Assembly (NCBI GenBank): GCA_037447655.1
Contig: JBBHKE010003528.1
Span: forward strand, 35,216-99,215
Direction of reading: 5' to 3'
Source of the DNA: Zygnema cylindricum
Lineage: Eukaryota > Streptophyta > Zygnematophyceae > Zygnematales > Zygnemataceae
DNA: 64,000 nt
Shown: positions 1 through 59,072 of the stretch, piece after piece
How the letters are laid out: each line of letters begins with the position of its first letter
How positions within the stretch are numbered: position 1 is the stretch's first letter
Notes under the pieces: generated by a model
The model's database searches: none
Seen by the model: only the letters and a program-made list of their open reading frames with translations
What the model was told of the DNA's origin: nothing
Made by a program: the position numbers and the translations under genes

Positions 1-786
1 TGCAATCAAGTCCAGGTGGTCGGCTTATCTCGTAAATAATTACACTCAGTTTCAATCCGCAAAGTGCAGTTAAATCTTGAAACAACGAGTCCTAACACAG
101 TATTTTTTGGTGCACCGAAGATTAGATCGGTCTCTATCAGCGGATTGAAAAACGGGGCTCACATCATGTTGGACAAAAAAGAATACAGGCATGCTATTGT
201 TAAGGACCGGCCACTAACCGAGGATCATAACGAAACTGAAACCATGATAGCCATCCTGTTTGAACCGAACATATTCCGTGAACCCCGACTTCCTCTGTCC
301 CACGACAAAGTCATGACAGAGGACTCTTTTTGGGATCTGGTTGTACTACACTCGGGGCAAAAAGTTAGGCGACTATCTCTGGCTAGATTAGAAGCCACGT
401 GGTTTTTTATGACACAATCCTGAGCAACAAAGTTCTAAATTGACGTGAAACGCCTAACTTTGACTCACATTAATAAATGCTCTATTCGGCTGGTGGACCT
501 GAACTAACGTCCTACTGATAGCCAACAGCAAAATCTACCAGACTATCCCAAAAGTTACGTGGCGTTCCACAATGTAGCCCCCAATAGGACAGTTGGCATC
601 TTGTCACATGTAACAGGATGGTAATCTTTGGAACGGAGTAACTTTGTCTTCCGGCCTCCGTTAGGCGCGAAATAAAGTGCGTTCCGTTCAGTTAGGAAAA
701 TAGAAGAATCTAGTCTGGCTGAGTGCGCTCCTTTCCCCGTACTTTAAGGACCGTACAGAGGAAAAAGGGCCCGGGAATCTTTGGTA
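1..786. other. Unassigned sequence left of Copia element A
   Basis: I see no recognisable gene or terminal repeat here. An open frame runs from 64 to 423 on the plus strand, but it has no ATG at its start, matches no family I know and has no splice context. The 5' LTR and the first part of gag of the neighbouring Copia element are not visible, so that element is either cut off or rearranged before about 787. Confidence 0.5.
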
Positions 787-1203: not shown

Positions 1204-2483
1204 CCCCAAAAGGTACTTACATTCTCAAATGTACTCTACATTCCTCAGCTGAGTAAAAATCTTGTCTCTACTTCTGTGTTAGATGACAAGGAGTTTGATA
1301 CCTTCACTAAAAAGGGAGTCTTTACAACTTAGTTTGGGGATGAAGTTTACTTCACGGCAGATAAGGGTAGCAAAGGAATATTAGGCTTAACCTGCGTAAT
1401 GAAAATAATAATGCTTTCTATGTTGGTGTTCCTAAGTTGATGATTTGACATAAGCGGTTGGGGCATGTGCATTTTGATAGGTTGAGGGAAATGAAAAAGC
1501 TTTGGGTAGTAGAAGGAATTCAGTTTGGGGATAATGAAATGATGGAAGATTGTAGTGGTTGTGCTCAAGGTAAGGCTCACAGACTTCCCTTTCCTAAAGC
1601 CACCACATTTACAGGTGATAAAGTGTTAGATTTGGTCCACACAGATATTTGAGGACCTGCAAAAGTACCTTCGGTTGGAGGAAAGAGGTTTATGATTACA
1701 ATAATCGATGACTGGTCTAGATACTCTAGAGTCTATTTTCAGAAAACAAAGTCTGAAGCATCAACTTACTTCAAAGAATATAAAGCATGGAGTGAGAAGT
1801 TGCAGGAAACCACCATTAAAAAGATAAGGAATGATAATGGGGAAGAATATAACTCTTACCATTTTGAGGAATATTTGAGAGATGAGGGAGTGCAGCACCA
1901 GAAAACTGTACTATATAACGCGGAACAAAATGGGGTAGCTACGAGATTGAATCAAACACTAGGAGATAGTGCATGCAGTATGTTGGCAGACAAGAAAATA
2001 GGAAAGAGATTTTGGGCGGAAGCAATAAACTGTGCTAACTACATTAAGAATAGAGTCCTTACCTTAGCTCTAAAGGGAGTGACACTTAATGAGAGATGGG
2101 TTGGAAGGAAACCAAATATCTCACACCTTAAAGTATTCGGTAGCCAAGATTACAGTCTTGACACGGATAGGAAAAACTGGAAACTAGATGCTAAGGGAAA
2201 ACGTAGATACTTTGTGGGATATGATGAGGATGTTGAGGGACATAAAGTCTATGACTTAGCAAAGAAAGATATCATTCTGGTCAAACACTTAGTTGTCATG
2301 AATGAAGGGAAGTCATTTGACCCCTTCAAATATATAAAGAAGATAAGAATCAGATTTGAGTCTGAAAGTGAGGAGAACTCAGTCGTTCCTGAAATGGACA
2401 TGAGTGAAACCCTGATTGCATATTCATGGGGGATCCGAGATACAAAAGACTCACCGGAAACCTCACATACTCCTATGGACTAG
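1204..2483 (+). pseudogene. Copia A protease tail, GAG-pre-integrase and integrase
   Basis: From 1204 the translation reads LTFSNVLYIPQLSKNLVSTS, the usual stretch downstream of the Copia protease. HKRLGHVHFDRL and DCSGCAQGK near 1449-1575 form the HHCC zinc domain of GAG-pre-integrase/integrase. The catalytic core follows: DLVHTDI with the first Asp, and IRNDNGEEY with the second. The position expected to hold the third acidic residue (normally NGVxER) reads NGVATR, so the catalytic Glu is gone. A TGA at 1650-1652 replaces a Trp codon. The frame shifts between about 2426 and 2480 into the next segment. Confidence 0.85.
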
Positions 2484-4258
2484 AGGAGATAGAAGAAGTG
2501 GGACCAGAACTGGCTTCCATGGACAAGGGAGCCGATGAGACAGTGAGGAGAAATCCAAGACTTCCATCCATTCCAGCTTCAGAGTTTAAGGGAGGGAGAA
2601 GGAGCAGCAATAGGATACAGGGAAAACAGGCCGCTCATAAGGTAACTAAGCTATCTCACCCAAATGAGCCTCAGTCTTACTCGGAGCCAATGAATAGTCC
2701 GGAGAAAGAAAGATGGATTAGAGCCATAAATGATGAGATGGCTTCTATCATGGAAGCAAATACTTAGGAACTAGCAGATTGTCCTCCAGACAAAAAATCT
2801 ATTAGGTGTAAAAAGGTATTTAAACTAAAACTAAACCCAGATAATACCATTGAGAGAAATAAGGCTCGATTGGTAGCGAAGGGGTTCATCCAAAAAGAGG
2901 GGAATGACTATGAGGAGACCTTTGCTCCAATTGTTCGGTTTCCATCAGTAAGGATTCTCCTCAGTCTGGCAGCAACGCAAGACATGGAAATCCACTAGAT
3001 GGACATTAAAACTGCTTTTCTTAATGGTGAGTTAGAGGAAGAAATTTTCATGAGACAACCCGAGGGGTTCGTGGAAGAAGGAGAAGAGAGAAAAGTCTGC
3101 AGGCTTATAAAGTCCTTAAATCAACTAAAGCATGCTCCGCGACAGTGGAATAAGAAACTAGATGAGTTTCTTACCCGTCGGGGATATATCCGTATCAGCT
3201 CTGAACATTCTATTTATATGTTTGAAGATGAGAATGGTGTCATTTTTATTGCAATATATGTGGATGATTTGCTTGTGTTAAGTAAATCTTTGGGAAAGAT
3301 CAATAAGTTAAAAAGAGATCTTAGAGGTAGATTTGATATCAAGGATGTAAGGGAGGCAAGATATATTTTAGGGATTCAAATGGAGAGAGATAGGGGGAAG
3401 AAAATTATCATACTTACTCAAAAATTAGCAAAAGGTAATAAGCTTGAAAAATTCCAGATGGAAAATGCTAACAATTGTACCACTCGCATGGACTTGAAAA
3501 AAGTAAGTGAGGGGAGTGAAGAAGGAGGAGTGATGATCTTAGATGATCAGATGAGTTCAGAGGAAAAAGAGTTTATAAAGTTTATCCCTTATAGACAGGT
3601 CGTTGGAAGTTTAATCTATTTTATGAACTGTACCAGGTGAAACATAGCGGCAGCTGTTAAAGTGCTCAGTAGGAGTCCTAATGATCCTAAGAAGAGAGAC
3701 TGGGAGGCAGCCAAGAGAGTCATGAGATATCTGGTGGGAATTAGAGAGTTATGGTTGCATTTGGTAGGGGAGCACACTGACATCACTACTTGGATTGATG
3801 TCAGTTATGGGGACGCACCTATAAGAAGATGCACTTTTGGGTATGTGTTGTATGTTGGGGAAGGTGCATGCTGTTGGAGCAGTAAGCAACAAAAGGTGGT
3901 TGCTCAGTCTACTATAGAGGCTGAGTACATGGCCTCTTGTTCTGCTGTGAAAGAGATGATGTGGGTCAAATCCTTGCTGCAAGAACTGGGGTATAAGAAG
4001 GAGGGAGTGCATGAAGTGTTTTGTGATAATCAAGCTGCCTTTGACATTGCAGCTAATCCAAAACATCATTTTAAAGCTAAGCATATAGACATAAGATTGA
4101 GTTTTGTGAGGGAAAAAGTTGAAAATAAGATTGTGAATCTTGTATATAGATCTGATGAAGAAATGGTGGCTGATATGATGACAAAGCCAGTGCCCTTTCA
4201 TAAATTGAAATATTGTAGAGAAAAATGTGGACTAAAACTGAAGGTAAAATTAGACTAG
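2426..4258 (+). pseudogene. Copia A reverse transcriptase and RNase H
   Basis: The linker PRLPSIPASEFKGGRRSSNR is followed by the RT domain: ARLVAKGF near 2866, MDIKTAFLNGELEEE at 2999, and the catalytic YVDD at 3257-3268. RNase H follows to 4258 with WSSKQQKVVAQSTIEAEYMA, DNQAA and HIDIRLSFVREKV. In-frame stops at 2765-2767 (Trp to TAG), 2996-2998 (Gln to TAG) and 3638-3640, plus frame changes, break it. The nearest relative in the window is the minus-strand pol of element G at 55620-58500, which shares long blocks of residues. Confidence 0.88.
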
Positions 4259-5960: not shown

Positions 5961-6694
5961 GCAAAAGCTGCACTTTCTCCCCTGAGTCGTGCACTTCGCC
6001 TAACTCCTCCTGGAAATTCTCTCGCTGGTGTAGATGGCTGGGTCCTCCTCCTTCATACATATGATTCTTCTTGTGATTCAGTTTTGGCTTGAGGTAGAGG
6101 AAAGTCTGTTATTCTTTCGGGCATAACACTTCCTGTTTCTGGTGGAGAAGATGATTGCAAGTCACTTTGAGCTAATGTAGATGCATTTTATACATTTTTC
6201 TTGAAAAACATGGGATTTTCCTCTAAAAAGATATAATCAACACTTCGACTTTTCTTTTTATCGCGACGTTGACTAAATACACCTACTCGTTTTACCTCAT
6301 CCTTTACTATGATGTTCCTGGCTACCACAACTTTATTTCTCTTAACGTCATATACTTTATAACCCTTAGCATGATCATCATACCCTAAAAATATGCCTGG
6401 TGTGCCTTTAAGCTCTCATTTCCATTTTTGTGGATCATTATCTAGGAAGAATACCTTACTTCCAAAAACGTTGAACTGACTTACATTTGGTTTCTGTCCT
6501 ATCCACATTTCATACAGGTTTATCTTTTACTGCCCTTGTTTCTAGCCTGTTTCTCACATAAGCTGCACAATGCATAGCCTATGGCCAAAATTTTAAATTT
6601 ATGTCTATATCAGCCATCATTGTCGTAGCACACTTAGATATGGTCATATTCATCCTTTTTGAAACACCGTTTTGTTCCGGAGAATGAGGAACGG

Positions 6695-17261: not shown

Positions 17262-17340
17262 AAATGAAAAAAAAGGGAGGGGGTGTTTGTTTATTTGTTT
17301 GTGGGAGTTGAAAGGAAAATAGACTTTAAAATAAGGGGAG

Positions 17341-29582: not shown

Positions 29583-29677
29583 TTTAGTTGTGAAGCAAAG
29601 GTAGGAATGCCAGCGACACAAAAGTGGACAAATGATTTGTTTATTCAATGATTGTTCTGTTATTTTTGTTTTAACTA

Positions 29678-29814
29678 CACCGCGAATCGTAATTAGAGTA
29701 AATTACTCTAATTCGGTCGCTCGAAATTTTGACTCTATCACATCAAATAGAGTAAATGATTCTAATTTTTTCATTATGCTATTTAAGGTAAGGTTTAATT
29801 AACGTTTTTAATGG
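29678..29814. repeat. Partial Z copy (left end only)
   Basis: 137 bp starting CACCGCGAATCGTAATTAG after TA. It is almost identical to the first 137 bp of the adjacent full copy at 29817 and stops at AATGG just before the TA that begins that copy. Confidence 0.8.
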
Positions 29815-29816
29815 TA

Positions 29817-30317
29817 CACCGTGAATCGTAATTAGAGTAAATTACTCTAATTCGGTCGCTCGAAATTTCGTCTCTATCACATGAAATAGAGTAAATGATT
29901 CTAATTTTTTCATTATTCTATTTAAGGTAAAGTTTAATTAGCGTTTTTAATTATAATACAGGTTCGTTTTAAATAGTGTGGAGTACGGACGACCTCCGAC
30001 CGTGCAAAATTGTACTTTTTTAAGTAAAAAAGTACAAATAATGATTTAATACAGGTCGTTATCATGTAAGTGCGTTTTAACAAACCGCGTAGTGCAAACG
30101 TCATAGTGACGATAAACTGTACGTTTTGCCAAATTCTGTACAAATACCTTATTTACAGTAGAGGATATTAGAGTGCCAAATTAGAGTACTTAAATAAATT
30201 AGAGTAAACTTCATAGTTGAAACAACACTATCACATAAAATAGCGTTCATTACTCTAATTGTTTTTTTTAGTTTTTGTACTCTAATTTTTTCATTACTCT
30301 AATTACGATTCGCGGTG
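29817..30317. mobile_element. MITE Z4 (TA-flanked)
   Basis: CACCGTGAATCGTAATTAG to CTAATTACGATTCGCGGTG, TA at 29815-29816 and 30318-30319. 501 bp with the family's internal blocks. Non-coding. Confidence 0.85.
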
Positions 30318-30319
30318 TA

Positions 30320-30648
30320 GTTAATCCACTTACCTTGTAGTTCGTTGTATGGTTTTGTGAGTAATTGTATGTTGAACATATAATTCCTCAAGAATATGTG
30401 GGTGCTTAACCTTCCAAATCATGGCAATTCTATCGTATCACTGAAATTTGACATGCATAAAAAAAAGTATATATAAAATTAAAAAAAGTTGGGACCGGGG
30501 AGAGTGGGCTGCACGCGCAGGAACCCCTTGATGGCCAAAAACAAGAAGCAGGTGATGAATTAAAATTAGGGGTTCCTACTGGTTACCTTTTTCTTTTTAG
30601 CTTTTAGCTTCACCTTTTCCTTTTGCCTTGAAGGATTAAGAATAATTA
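30320..30648. other. Short intergenic stretch
   Basis: AT-rich DNA with no gene or repeat that I can support. Confidence 0.4.
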
Positions 30649-31456
30649 GGGTATTTTCGCATGTAACCGAAACTTAGTCATGCTACTTTGTTTTTTAGCA
30701 AAGATTCTCCGTACAGATTTCAGAGCATTCGGATGTAAACGCAAATAACTTGTCTCTTAAAAATGTGACTTACGTAGACGTGTACGAAGAATTGTGACAG
30801 ATGAAGTGGTACATAAAATGAGGCGAAACTTCCACTCGCCTTCAATTTGAGGCGTTTCTCCGCAAGCTGTACAATTTTTGTGACTTCGTAATGTCCGTGC
30901 GCCACATTGTCGACGTGTCGAAACCCTAAAACACCTTTCGCTATCGCACAGAATTTGCGGTTTTGTTTATCGTCTTCCCACTTGCCGACAGGTGGCCAAT
31001 ATTTTTCATACGCCGTATGTGTGAAGACACGTGTTTTTGAGAGAGACGGCCCTTGTACGGATCAGCGCAAGCAAAACATTACGCACATGATGGAAACGTG
31101 CAGTGTGTTTTTTTTTTGGTACTCCGCGCACAATTGCAAAAAACTTCAGACACATGCGACAGTGTCTGCCTATTTGCTCACCTTATTGGACTTTATTTCA
31201 AATCACCTCTCGAGGTGATTTGATGTAAAGTTTGAACATGTGTTGAAAGGACTCGAAAGTGGGTCGAAATGCGCTAAACGACAAATTTGTTCGCGCTAGA
31301 CGACAAACTACTGTACGTATAAAGTTTCAGGGTAACGCAACTTGTACGGTGGTAATTTCTATTTTTTGTTACGGCTGCGGATTTTCTCCCTTTTTTCTAA
31401 GTTATGGAGGAAAACGACAGAAAATAACTGTAACTTTAACACATGCGAAAATACCC
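30649..31456. mobile_element. MITE U1 (Tourist-like)
   Basis: Inverted ends GGGTATTTTCGCATGT and ACATGCGAAAATACCC, preceded by TTA and followed by TAA. 808 bp, matching U2 and U3 over the whole length. Central palindrome AATCACCTCTCGAGGTGATT near 31201. Trinucleotide TTA/TAA target sites and GG-starting ends are typical of PIF/Harbinger-derived MITEs; no transposase is present. Confidence 0.8.
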
Positions 31457-32754: not shown

Positions 32755-34401
32755 TAGTGTTGGGTATCCAGTAAATTCATATCGCGATAATTTCGATATT
32801 CGACATATCGAATATCGATCGAGTAAAATCCTCGATACATCGTACCGGGACCAACATAAATTATCGCAATATATATCGCGATATATAGTAATTTTTAAAT
32901 TTAATGTTTTATATTTTTATATAATATGTTATTTTAGCAAAAAAGATAAATTGTCTGATACGCCACGTACGACGTGATTTTCGTTCTGTGACATAAAGGT
33001 AGACTCTGCAAAACATAACCGACAAAAAAGTACTAAGGGTACTTTCGCATGTAACCGAAACTTAGTCTTGTTACTTTATTTTTTAGCGAAGATTCTCCGT
33101 ACAACTTTCAAAGCATTCGTATGTAAACACAAATAACTTGTTACTTAAAAAAGTGACTTACGCAGGCGTGTACGAAACAATGTGACAAATGAAGTGGACA
33201 CACGATGAGGCGAAAATTCCACTCGGCTTCAACTTGAGGCGTCTCTCCGCAAGCTGTACAATTTTTGTGACTTCGTAATGTCCGTACGCCACTTTGTCGA
33301 CGTGTCGAAATCCTAAAATACCTTTCGCTGTCGCACAAAAATACAGTTTCGTTTTTCGTCTTCCCACTTGCCGACAGGTGCCCAATGTTTTTCCTACACC
33401 GTATGTGTGAAGACACGTGTGTTTAAGAGAGACGACAAATTAGCGCACGGCAAAAGTACACACAAGCTGGAAACGTCAAGTGGGGTTTTTTTTTTTGGTA
33501 CTCCGCGCACAAAAATTGAAAAAAAATCCGACACGTGCGACATTATCTGCCTATTCGCTCACCTTATTGGACTAAATTTAAAATCAACTCGCGAGGTGAT
33601 TTGATGTAAAGTTTTAACATGTGGTGGAAGGAGGCGAAAATGGGTCGAAATGCGCTAGACGACAAATTGCATCGCGCTAGACGACAAACTACTATACGCA
33701 TAAAGTTTCAAGGCAAAGTAACTTGTATGGTGGCAATTTCATTTTTTTGGTACGGCTGCTGATTTTCTCGTTTTTTTGTAAGTTATGAAGGAAAACGACA
33801 GAAAATAATTGTAACTTTAGCACATGCGAAAGTACCTTAATTATGTAATTCAAATATTTAATTATTTAGGGTATGGTTACATTAGGAGGTCTTTGTAATA
33901 GTACGGAAAACGAAATTTCTGTATTACGGAGGCCTCGGTTACATCGGGCATCGTCTATAAATAATTTTTTACATACCTGTTCTGATTTGAGTAGTTACAC
34001 GTAAGTTGATGATCAAATCTCTATAATCGTCAAATATTTAGAAACCGACCATTTTCGTATGGGAATCCTTACTTGCGTAGTAAGTACGTGTACTTCACAA
34101 GTGTACCGCGTCAATCTACCTCCACGATCTCCTTCACTCTGCTGACTTTCAAGAAAAAACCGTATTTCATTTTGGCAAAGATTTTACAGTCACCTTGTCC
34201 GAAGGCACTTTTCTTTGGAGACTTGGGAAAATTTTCATTATTTTTTTTAAAAAGCCTTGATATATCGACGATATGATATATTGGCAATATATTGGCGGTA
34301 TATCGCGATATTTACCTAATCGAAGCGATATATCGATTATTGGGTACCTGAAATTTGATACATATCGAATATCGACAAATGGTCCTCGATACCCAACACT
34401 A
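32755..34401. mobile_element. hAT-like non-autonomous element V
   Basis: Ends TAGTGTTGGGTATC and GATACCCAACACTA with subterminal ATATCG/CGATAT repeats. The 8-bp target duplication is CTTACCTG (32747-32754) and, beyond the Z6 insertion, CTTACTTG (35019-35026), one mismatch. It contains U2. Ends and 8-bp TSD fit hAT. Element S (49077-50254) has related ends. Confidence 0.72.
33037..33836. mobile_element. MITE U2 inside V
   Basis: GGGTACTTTCGCATGTAACC to GCACATGCGAAAGTACC, flanked by TAA (33034-33036) and TAA (33838-33840, after one drifted base). 800 bp, about as long as U1 and U3. Centre: CAACTCGCGAGGTGATT. Confidence 0.8.
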
Positions 34402-35016
34402 CACCGCGAATCGTAATTAGAGTAAAGAAAAAGTTAGAGTAAAAAAAAAAAAAAACAATTAGAGTTATTAACGCTAATTTGTGTGATATAACTTTTTCAC
34501 TGAGGAAGCATTCTCTAATTTATTTAAGTACTCTATATTGGGTTATGTCGGCAATAATTATCCGCGTTGTATTTATGAACATTAAATTACGTAGACGTAC
34601 AAAATTTGTCAATCCGTATAGTTTGACGTCATTATGACGCTAGAACTATTTGTCGCGCTGAAAGTCAGTTAATGTTCACATTGACGACGATGCTATCGAC
34701 AGACGAGAGTTATGCGAACGACTTTTTTTCAATTTGATTGATGTTTTTGTTTAGTGCGATTTCACCTGCGAGCGCGATTCTATTAAATCAATATTTTGTA
34801 CCTTTTTACTTATTAAAGTACAATTTTGCACGGCCAGACATCGTCTCTACTCCACACTATTTAAAACGAACCTAGATTAGAACATTTTACGCTAATTAAA
34901 CTTTACCTTAAATAGCATAATGAAAAATTTAGAATCATTTACTCTATTTAAGGAGATAGAGCCAAAATTTAGGGCGACCGAATTATCGTTATTTACTCTA
35001 ATTACGATTCGCGGTG
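34402..35016. mobile_element. MITE Z6, inserted in the terminal TA of V
   Basis: CACCGCGAATCGTAATTAG to CTAATTACGATTCGCGGTG, TA at 34400-34401 and 35017-35018. The left TA is the last two bases of V. 615 bp, longer than the other copies. Its last 68 bases fall within the left arm of the mirror repeat. Confidence 0.85.
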
Positions 35017-35546
35017 TACTTACTTGAATTTTTTTGGGCCACGGAGGCGTCCCAAAGGGGTCCTCGTCGCCCTATCCTCCCGTTTTACATAATTGATGCA
35101 TTTCACACTAGAAATGGATCGATGGAGGCGTCCCGAAGGGGTCCACGTCGCCCCAGCCTCCCATTTTACATAATTGCGGCATTCACACTAGAAATGGATG
35201 GTGAATGAGATGAGGAAAATGAATGATCCCGTGCCAATAATTCCGCAAAAAAAAAAAAAACGTGCCCTAGTAAGTAAAAGGAGTAGAGTAAGTGGTAGGT
35301 AAAGATCACACTTACGGCGTTAATACATTTTACCCTCCGACCCCGCTGCACCTGGGGAAGCCCTGCGGAGGTAGCTAGGTAAAGATCACACTTTACGTAG
35401 TTAATACATTTTGCCCTCCTATCCCGCTGCTCCTGGGGAAACCCTGCGGAGGCACCGGGTTTTTTTAAGTTCATTCATGTGGCGCTTAGCATTAATCTCA
35501 TTTATTGCTATTAAGCCAGCGGGATTTAAAACCGAGATAGAGGAAT
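34949..35546. repeat. 286-bp perfect mirror repeat next to a gap
   Basis: Bases 35261-35546, read backwards without complementing, equal bases 34949-35234 at every position I compared (position i pairs with 70495 minus i). The centre 35235-35260 ends in 14 A. The right arm stops exactly at the N run. The left arm contains the genuine Z6 end and V duplication, so the right arm is the copy. Two ~80-bp direct repeats (GGAGGCGTCCC...) sit within each arm. Confidence 0.95.
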
Positions 35547-35556
35547 NNNNNNNNNN
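35547..35556. other. Assembly gap (10 N)
   Basis: Ten undetermined bases. A fixed run of ten usually marks a gap of unknown size. Confidence 0.99.
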
Positions 35557-35863
35557 GCGTTTAAAACACGCTGTCGATTTCCATAAAATACCAAAGCTGT
35601 GCAGCTGTTACACCGCATGCTTGTAATGCTTCAGTGTTTTTAACATGTCGCACGCCTCTTTGCGGAGTTTAACTTCCGCTCACCTTCAAAGCGGAGTAAA
35701 ATACATGGTGAAGTAGACAGTGTTAAGAAGCATGTGCAGATGCATTCAGTGAAAAAATTCATTGTTCACATATTTTTGGTGATTTAACATTATCAATCTA
35801 GCAAAGTAAATTCCTATTGAGATTTATCTGTACAACTTCTGTCTTTTATGACTCGTCACCTTA
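35557..35863. other. Unassigned sequence right of the gap
   Basis: No repeat recognised. On the minus strand, a short frame near 35623-35680 reads KEACDMLKTLKHYKHAV then stop; it could be a terminal exon of the minus-strand gene to the right, but nothing links them. Confidence 0.25.
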
Positions 35864-36672
35864 GGGTATTTTCGCATGTAACCGAAACTTAGACTTGCTA
35901 CTTTGTTTTTTAGCGAAGATTCTCCGTACAACTTTCAGAGCATTCGGATGTAAACACAAGTAACTTGTTACTTAAAAAAGTGACTTACGTAGACGTGTAC
36001 GAAGAATTGTGACAGATGAAGTGGTACATAAAATGAGGCGAAACTTCCACTCGCCTTCAATTTGAGGCGTTTCTCCGCACGCTGTACAATTTTTGTGACT
36101 TCGTAATGTTCGTACGCCACATTGTCGACGTGTCGAAACCATAAAATACCTTTAGCTGTCGCACAAAATTTGCGGTTTCAATTATCGTCTTCCCACTTGT
36201 TGACAGGTGGCCAATATTTTTCATACGCCGTATGTGTGATGCCACGTGTTTTTGAGAGAGACGGCCCCTGTACGGATCGGCGCACGCAAAACATTACGCA
36301 CAGGCTGGAAACGTGGTGTGTTATTTTTTTGGTACTCCGCGCACAAAAATTGTAAAAAACTTCAGACACGTGCGACAGTGTCTGCCTATTCGCTCACCTT
36401 ATTGGACTTTATTTCAAATCACCTCGCGAGGTGATTTGATGTAAAGTTTGAACATGTGTTGAAAGGACGCGAAAGTGGGTCGAAATGCGCTAAACGACAA
36501 ACTGTATCGCGCTAGACGACAAACTACTGTACGTATAAAGTTTCAGGGTAACGCAACTTGTACAGTAGTAATTTCTATTTTTTGGTGTGACTGCGGATTT
36601 TCTCGTTTTTTTCTAAGCTATGGAGGAAAACGACAGAAAATAATTGTAACTTTAGCACATGCGAAAATACCC
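35864..36672. mobile_element. MITE U3 (Tourist-like)
   Basis: GGGTATTTTCGCATGTAACC to GCACATGCGAAAATACCC with TTA on both sides (35861-35863, 36673-36675). 809 bp. Perfect central palindrome ATCACCTCGCGAGGTGAT at about 36418-36435. Confidence 0.85.
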
Positions 36673-43020: not shown

Positions 43021-43127
43021 TTGTTTCTCTCTCTCCCCCTCTCTCTCTCCCTCTCCCTCTCCCTCTCCCTCTCCCTCTCCCTCTCCCTCTGCCTCTGCCT
43101 CTCCCTCTCCCTCTCCCTCTCCCTCCC
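43021..43127 (-). repeat. GGAGAG/CTCTCC microsatellite
   Basis: About 105 bp of (CTCTCC)n with CTGCCT interruptions on the plus strand. It lies about 65 bp upstream of the minus-strand ATG at 42956, so probably in its 5' leader. The chance Arg/Glu frame through it is not taken as coding. Confidence 0.9.
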
Positions 43128-56380: not shown

Positions 56381-57904
56381 TTAGTACATCCGTTTATTTT
56401 TTTTCATCTGAAATTTTTCTAACATATTACCGATTGCTTCCTTTTGAGTTAGTTTTATAATTCTATTCCCTTTATCTCTCTCCATCAGAATTCCCAAAAT
56501 GTACTTTGCTTCGCCAAGATCTTTCATATCAAAATTGCTTCTAAGATCCCCTTTTAGTTTGTTAATTTTATCTAAGGACTTGCTTAAGACCAACAAATCA
56601 TCCACATAAATAGCAATAAATATCACTCCATTCTCATCCTCAAAAAAATATATAGAGTGATTTGAACTAATTCTGATATACCCCAAACCGGTCAGAAATT
56701 CGTCGAGCTTTATATTCCACTGTCGCGGGGCTTGCTTAAGCCCATATAGTGATTTTATCAGTTTGCCATCTTTATTTTCTTCCCCACTTTCCACGAATCC
56801 TTCCCGTTCCCTCATGTAAATTTCTTCTTCCAACTCTCCGTGCAAAAAGGTCGTTTTAATATCCATCTGGTGGATTTCCATATCCTTCTTTGCGGCTATA
56901 CTTAAAAGGATTCTAACAGAAGGAAATCTGACTACAGGTGCAAAGGTTTCTTCGTAGTCTATCCCCTCTTTCTGAGTATAACCTTTTGCAACTAACCTAG
57001 CTTTGTACCTCTCAATGGTATTATCCTGGTTTAATTTAAGTTTAAAAACCCACTTACATCCAATCGGTTTTCGGTCCGGTTGACAATCTACCAACTCCCA
57101 TGTATTGGCTTCCATGATAGAGTCCATTTCTTCATTTATAGCTGTGATCCACCGGCTACTTTCTGGAGTGTTTATGGCCTCTAAGTATGTTTGAGGTTCA
57201 TCTGGGTGAGACATCTTTGTGAGTTGGTTATTTACTTGTCTTTCTTGAAGTCGTTTACTACTTCTTCTTCCCCCTTCAAAATTGGATGCCGGTATGGAAG
57301 TCATCCTTGGGTTTCGTTTGGGGAGATTTTCAGCTCCCCTATCTTCCAATTCCGGTGTCTCATCAAGTTCCTCATCGGTTTCCACTTTGTTTTGTGGCGT
57401 TGCCTCGGATGTTGTCCTTTCCTCCTTCTCCTTTGGTAGATCTGCAGATTTTTCTTTTTCTCCCTCTTCCTTCTCTTCATTTTCAAAATCAAAGTCAGAA
57501 AACTGATCCGTTTCAAATCTGATTTTGACTTCCTTATTATATTTGAATGGATCAATGGACTTCTCTTCATTCATCACCACTATGTGTTTTACCAAAATTA
57601 TATCTCTCTTTTTCAAGTCATACACTCGGTATCCTTTTGTGCTCTCATCATATCCTACATGATATCCTGGCTTCCCTCTCCCCTCTAACTTCCATTTATT
57701 TTTATCGGAATCCAAATTGTAGACTTGACTTCTGAACACTCTCAAACTAGACAAATCAAGCTTTCTTCTTGTCCACCTCTCATACGGAGTTTCCTCCTTA
57801 TTTGCTGAAGTTAGGACTCTATTTTTGATGAAATTAGCATAGTTTATAGACTCGGCCCAAAATTGCAACCCTATCCTCTTATCAGTTAACGTACTTTTGG
57901 ACAT
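56381..57904 (-). pseudogene. Copia G integrase C-terminus and reverse transcriptase
   Basis: An uninterrupted 507-codon frame. LQFWAESINYANFIKNRVLT ends the integrase core. An acidic hinge (SDFDFENEEKEEGEKEKS) leads to RT with WELVDCQPDRKPIGCKWVFK, ARLVAKGYTQKEGIDYEETF and FLHGELEEEIYM, and the catalytic YVDD encoded at 56608-56597. It ends at QMKKNKRMY. Despite its length the element is dead, because IN and RNase H are broken and its 5' part is interrupted. Confidence 0.88.
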
Positions 57905-59072
57905 ATATCCTAAAGTTCTATTTACTCTTTTTGCTACTCCATTGTGTTCCGGATTATAGGGAAAAGTTTTCTCATTATGAATTCCTTCTTCTTTAAGATA
58001 TTCTTCAAATTCCCTTGAGGTGCATTCTTTCCTATTATCACTTTTTATCTCTTTTAATGAGGTTTCATGTAGTTTTTCACTCCATACTTTATACTCTTTG
58101 AAATATAATAATACCTCTGACTTATGTCTGAGAAAGTATACCTTCGTGTATCTAGACTAATCATCTGTGATGGTTAACATCCATCTCTTCTCCCCATGTG
58201 AAGCATACCTAGCAGGTCCCCAAACATCAGTGTGAACTAGATCTTATACTTTCTCTCTCCTAAATGTGGTTGCCTTTGGAAATGGAAGTCTATGAATCTT
58301 CCCTTGGCACATCCACTACAATCATCAAAGGTCTCATCATCCTCAAAAGTAATACCCTCCACTATTCCCTTTTTCTTCATTTTCTTTAACCTATCTAGAT
58401 GCACATGCCCCAACCTTTTATGCCAAAGCATCATCGCACTTGCACACGAGTAGAGAACACTCTTTTCATTGCAAAGAACAATTCTGATCATTCCTTGACT
58501 GCCCTTCTCAGCAATGAAATAAACTTCATTATCAAAGCTTGCTGTGAAGATTCCTTTCCTAGTTCCTGTTTCAAACTCCTTTTCATCTAGGACACCTGTT
58601 GAGACTAGGTTCTTGCTAAGGTGAGGAATGTAAAGAACTTATGAGAGTGTTACAATTGAGGCCTTTCCATCAACTAGAACCTTCAAGTCAACAGTTCCAA
58701 CAAGACTTGTGGTTTCTACTCTACCATCTGCGTACTCTATCTCAACTGTTGGGATCTTTCTTAATTTAGCAAACCACCGCTTATCTTTGCACATATGCAT
58801 TGAAGCCCCTGAGTCTATGATCCACCCATCCTCGGGTGGATCCCTCTTACCTTCGAAAGCACACTTTTGTCTCCGTGGAATGTCGACATGCTATTCAGTG
58901 TTTTTCGGATTAAGAAGAAGCTCCTCAAGCTCCTCTTCTGGTTCAGTTTTTCCTTCTACTTCCTCATCATGAACTTGAGTAAGGAAAGCCTTTTTCTTTC
59001 CTCCATCCCTTGAGGTTCCTTGACCATCTTTGAGTCGAAGATCTGCATGTTTGATACAATATGCCATATAGT
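57905..59072 (-). pseudogene. Copia G gag end, protease, GAG-pre-integrase, integrase start
   Basis: From 59072 leftward: YMAYCIKHADLRLKDGQG (end of the zinc knuckle), LEELLLNPKNTE, the protease GWIIDSGASMHMC (intact D-S-G-A), VLYIPHLSKNLVSTGVLDEK, then LWHKRLGHVHLDRLKKMKKK and DCSGCAKG at 58491-58237. The integrase core to 57905 is in shifted frames with stops. Confidence 0.82.

Follow-up and report, generated by a model that had tools for sequence, protein, structure and literature searches.

H-DNA-forming mirror repeats show mirror symmetry on one strand and are, as a rule, rich in purines or in pyrimidines, while fold-back reads give reverse complements. Sequence beside assembly gaps may also come from gap-filling tools. 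The excerpted text on one of these, GAPPadder, describes local sequences that are derived from reads and anchored on the gap flanks (300 bases by default), an orientation that the program must judge, and gaps that may be extended only where they cannot be closed; GapCloser and GapFiller are named alongside as tools of the same kind (PMC6551238).

The window analysed here is a stretch of 64,000 nucleotides of Zygnema cylindricum (C2643:35216-99215), part of an assembly of 352,776,454 bases in 2689 contigs. It contains exact mirror repeats that are very probably an assembly artefact, in which gap extensions appear to have been reversed without being complemented and pasted in without being merged.

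Exact mirrors beside the gaps of one scaffold

The only N run of the window is a gap of 10 N at 35547-35556, at which an exact mirror stops. A same-strand reversal of its left arm, 34949-35234, gives 35261-35546 with no mismatch over 286 bases, base i corresponding throughout to base 70495 minus i, and the centre between the arms (35235-35260) consists of 12 mixed bases followed by 14 A. An earlier note on this DNA had described a perfect 286-bp mirror ending at the gap and a 26-base centre ending in a run of 14 A, and both descriptions agree with the complete comparison of the arms (286/286). The features adjoining the two gaps are listed below in window coordinates.

1-338, no strand: block reversed without complementing that follows a run of 1883 N; 1-172 is 339-510 backwards (172/172)
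173-338, no strand: putative backwards extension of 166 bases within block 1-338 (reverse of 1-338 against L012:929-1265)
339-510, plus strand: apparently genuine start of the contig, which the reversed block overlaps (ordinary-sense alignment with L012)
34949-35260, plus strand: apparently genuine end of the contig that precedes the 10-N gap, made of the left arm and the 26-base centre with its A run (ordinary-sense alignment with a paralogue)
35261-35546, no strand: block reversed without complementing; 34949-35234 backwards (286/286, identity of 1.00 by plain reversal only)
35547-35556, no strand: 10-N gap, the sole N run of the window (N scan)
35557-35768, no strand: block reversed without complementing, right of the 10-N gap; 35963-36174 backwards (212/212)
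35769-35859, no strand: 91 bases, probably the remainder of the reversed block (no match in either sense)
35860-36174, plus strand: apparently genuine contig start right of the 10-N gap, including the presumed true arm 35963-36174 (ordinary-sense repeat alignment)

The identity of block 35261-35546 to the left arm is 1.00 when the block is plainly reversed, 0.26 when it is read directly, 0.27 when it is complemented and 0.00 when it is reverse-complemented. Since identity is complete only on plain reversal, the two form a true mirror, rather than an inverted repeat that was misread. The number of exact mirrors of at least 286 bases expected in 64 kb from base composition has a log10 of about -157, which rules out chance.

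Comparison of the window with its own reversal gave two further exact mirrors. The second (35557-35768 and 35963-36174, 212 bases) begins straight after the 10-N gap, and the third (1-172 and 339-510, 172 bases) begins at window base 1, which is directly preceded by the run of 1883 N at C2643:33333-35215. Mirrors and N runs were compared over the whole scaffold C2643 (111,914 bases; the window and stretches L009-L014), which has two N runs with four flanks, three of them bearing a mirror. The remaining flank, to the left of the 1883-N run, carries no mirror: its reversal gave no match, and ordinary-sense matches reach to 2 to 8 bases from its end. The earlier note had described the fault at a single site; its reading of an error at the 10-N gap is supported, and the scope has to be widened to both flanks of this gap and to other gaps.

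Orientation and content of the mirrored arms

For four of the five large mirrors identified in total (two more are described in the next section), relatives aligning in the ordinary sense mark the arm away from the gap as genuine, the exception being a mirror in stretch L022 that has no deciding relative. Judged by these alignments, the backwards copy in the four mirrors is the gap-side piece. On the left side of the 10-N gap, a paralogue on C985 (L002/L015) matches the 312 bases of 34949-35260 in the ordinary sense, with 311 of them aligned at 91%; the paralogue runs on past the A run, and neither L002 nor L015 contains a mirror of at least 25 bases. Because the paralogue aligns through the centre and the A run, the 14 A appear to belong to the genuine contig. 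The same alignment led us to drop the idea that they are padding of a 300-base block (286 + 14). Right of the gap, the sequence from 35860/35861 to 36500 aligns in the ordinary sense with 30646-31284 (93.6%) and 33033-33665 (86.5%). After the 1883-N run, the sequence from 339 onward aligns in the ordinary sense with L012:1095-1579 at 94.5%, and for L024, ordinary-sense relatives of the part from about position 6142 on include window 32879-32753.

The block at the start of the window gives the clearest view of what was reversed. Over its whole length, its reverse aligns at 94% with L012:929-1265, a repeat copy lying about 4 kb away across the 1883-N run. Once un-reversed, its last 172 bases are those of the contig start 339-510 (172/172), and its first 166 bases are the sequence expected upstream of base 339, judged by the relative in L012. 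The un-reversed block is thus collinear with both the relative and the contig, and reads as a sensible extension into the gap that was reversed without complementing and whose overlap was left unmerged. This supports the explanation put forward in the earlier note, in which a gap fill or the handling of reads reversed sequence but did not complement it. Judged by the L012 relative, what lies at the centre of this mirror would then be new sequence and not a loop. The block in L024 consists of overlap only. Two observations at the 10-N gap count against this explanation: the overlaps do not start at the contig ends but 26 bases (left) and 103 bases (right) inside them, and the segment 35769-35859, which probably completes the reversed block right of this gap, matched neither the window nor L002-L020 at E 1e-3, whether read forwards or reversed. 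At several gaps, the blocks look like an overlap that was left unmerged, with new extension sequence added at one gap or more; they are reversed and they are not merged with the contigs that they overlap.

Reads that fold back on themselves or retain a missed adapter yield palindrome-like structures, and their carry-over into the assembly might be considered as a source of the mirrors. Such an origin needs a reverse complement, whereas reverse-complement identity is 0.00 over the 286 bases, and the window-start block holds 166 bases that are absent from the contig. Fold-back reads as the sole cause are refuted; they would be relevant only if a later step had also lost the complement, and we regard any origin in such reads as very improbable.

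The left-arm stretch is a member of a dispersed repeat family with at least 44 matches (40 of 1761 first-look candidates were scored). The true end of a MITE and the hAT target duplication that the earlier note had placed in this arm were not confirmed. Between 34650-34830 and 34960-35030, no terminal inverted repeat pair with 15 of 20 matches was found. A tandem duplication of the end of the same family occurs at 29676-29951 (period 139, 2.0 copies, 94% match). The intervals 30646-31284, 33033-33665 and 35861-36500 are three same-orientation copies of one repeat, about 2.4 to 2.8 kb apart. Long low-complexity tracts of CTCTCC-like sequence recur at 43027-43125 of the window, at about 8600-9900 of L024 and at about 3150-3850 of L025. 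Frames of copia-type retroelements are present at 56381-58156 (minus strand) and 1653-4258 (plus strand). The former, of 591 aa, has distant relatives, the best of which is 39% identical over the full length among the best 120 of 6506 matches. Of six open frames scanned against Pfam, three were without any match; the scan gave one match to a copia-type gag, a marginal one to an aspartyl protease (20.4 bits for a cut-off of 20.3) and two further matches below the cut-offs. The window yielded no Rfam match at the gathering thresholds and no match in a tRNA scan.

Recurrence of mirrors at other gaps

The region C571:1-50000 (L021-L025), which lies on another scaffold and was chosen blind to gaps, has two N runs. 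In L022, a run of 10 N is followed by a 170-base mirror (3371-3540 and 3772-3941), and in L024 a run of 4581 N is followed by a mirror without a centre, with a total length of 145 bases (6067-6211). The centre of the L022 mirror (3541-3771) is made up of two direct copies of about 109 bases with 85% identity. By comparison, C262:100001-120000 has neither an N run nor a mirror of at least 25 bases. In the whole sample of about 257 kb (N included), there are four N runs with eight flanks, and mirrors of 145 to 286 bases are present at five of the eight, that is at all four right flanks and at one of the four left flanks. All five start or end at the base adjoining the N run. These counts refer to four N runs on two scaffolds, in a sample that is not random, L003-L008 and L015-L020 having been picked for holding relatives of the left arm.

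The three flanks lacking a mirror are all left flanks, an asymmetry that counts against the artefact. Besides that of the 1883-N run, they are the two on C571. In L022, the flank to the left of the 10-N run has no mirror, and ordinary-sense matches reach its end; in L024, the flank to the left of the N run is of low complexity and has no mirror of at least 25 bases. In two other mirrors of at least 40 bases (42 and 100), one arm is a gap-edge block and the other a further copy of its repeat; the mirrors of 26 to 38 bases are of this type too. The longest mirror without a gap-edge block in the sample of about 257 kb is of 25 bases (17281-17305), for a search that requires an exact seed of 16 bases with at least three kinds of letter, handles one stretch at a time, and misses two-letter and distant mirrors.

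A real mirror repeat, arising by an unknown copying process or representing an element that forms H-DNA, has as its sole support the presence of the letters in the assembly. All five mirrors adjoin N runs, and in each one that could be judged it is the arm next to the gap that stands out as odd. Moreover, the arms are identical, whereas differences of 5 to 14% are seen between ordinary copies of the repeats. The arms are not purine-rich either: the purine fraction is 0.503, 0.500 and 0.512 in three of them, and the longest purine or pyrimidine run is of 6 to 8 bases, unlike the purine or pyrimidine richness of the H-DNA type. We know of no established process that copies a strand in the reversed sense, and the chance that these repeats are real is negligible.

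An error of handling after assembly, for example during file conversion or copying, would place the fault outside any gap-filling program. The reversed pieces are all short and lie beside N runs only, and bases 173-338 are absent elsewhere in the contig end yet collinear with a repeat copy, which is not expected of file handling. We consider such an error extremely improbable.

A gap fill that reverses its sequence predicts recurrence at gaps and not elsewhere, which matches the sample. We lean towards the view that, through a software fault, a large share of the gap edges in this assembly of 353 Mb carry sequence that is reversed and uncomplemented.

Proposed origin and relation to known systems

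The mirrors are most likely explained by the following series of steps in a gap-filling program, which we propose as the cause. A gap-filling step would build short local sequences that overlap the contig ends beside a gap and that, in at least one case, reach into it. Where the gap is not bridged, these local sequences would be kept as partial extensions, and they would be written reversed, with no complement step and with the overlap untrimmed. At each affected gap edge, part of the adjoining contig end would then be repeated backwards, giving a perfect mirror repeat.

The mirror repeats have no biological meaning, but they mark an assembly fault clearly and are easy to scan for. Bases adjoining gaps in this genome are unsuited to work on repeats, genes or primers until they have been checked. 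If the proposed cause is true, assemblies made with the same program may carry the same fault, with false repeats and broken reading frames as a consequence, and a simple scan for mirrors beside N runs would reveal it in other assemblies. The fault is not described in the titles and abstract openings among the literature matches listed, which is weak evidence of absence.

Compared with known systems, the arms share mirror symmetry with H-DNA tracts, but they are of mixed composition, 145 to 286 bases long and, in the sample, found at gap edges only. Partial gap extension of the GAPPadder type resembles the present case in its anchoring on flanks and in leaving some gaps extended only, whereas the excerpted text describes reverse complements and the blocks found here are plain reversals (PMC6551238). 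GAPPadder serves as an example only, and nothing ties it to this assembly. Long-read fold-back artefacts are reverse complements inside reads, whereas the blocks described here are plain reversals beside assembly gaps. What such artefacts share with the present case is a false palindrome-like structure that stems from technique (PMC12870357).
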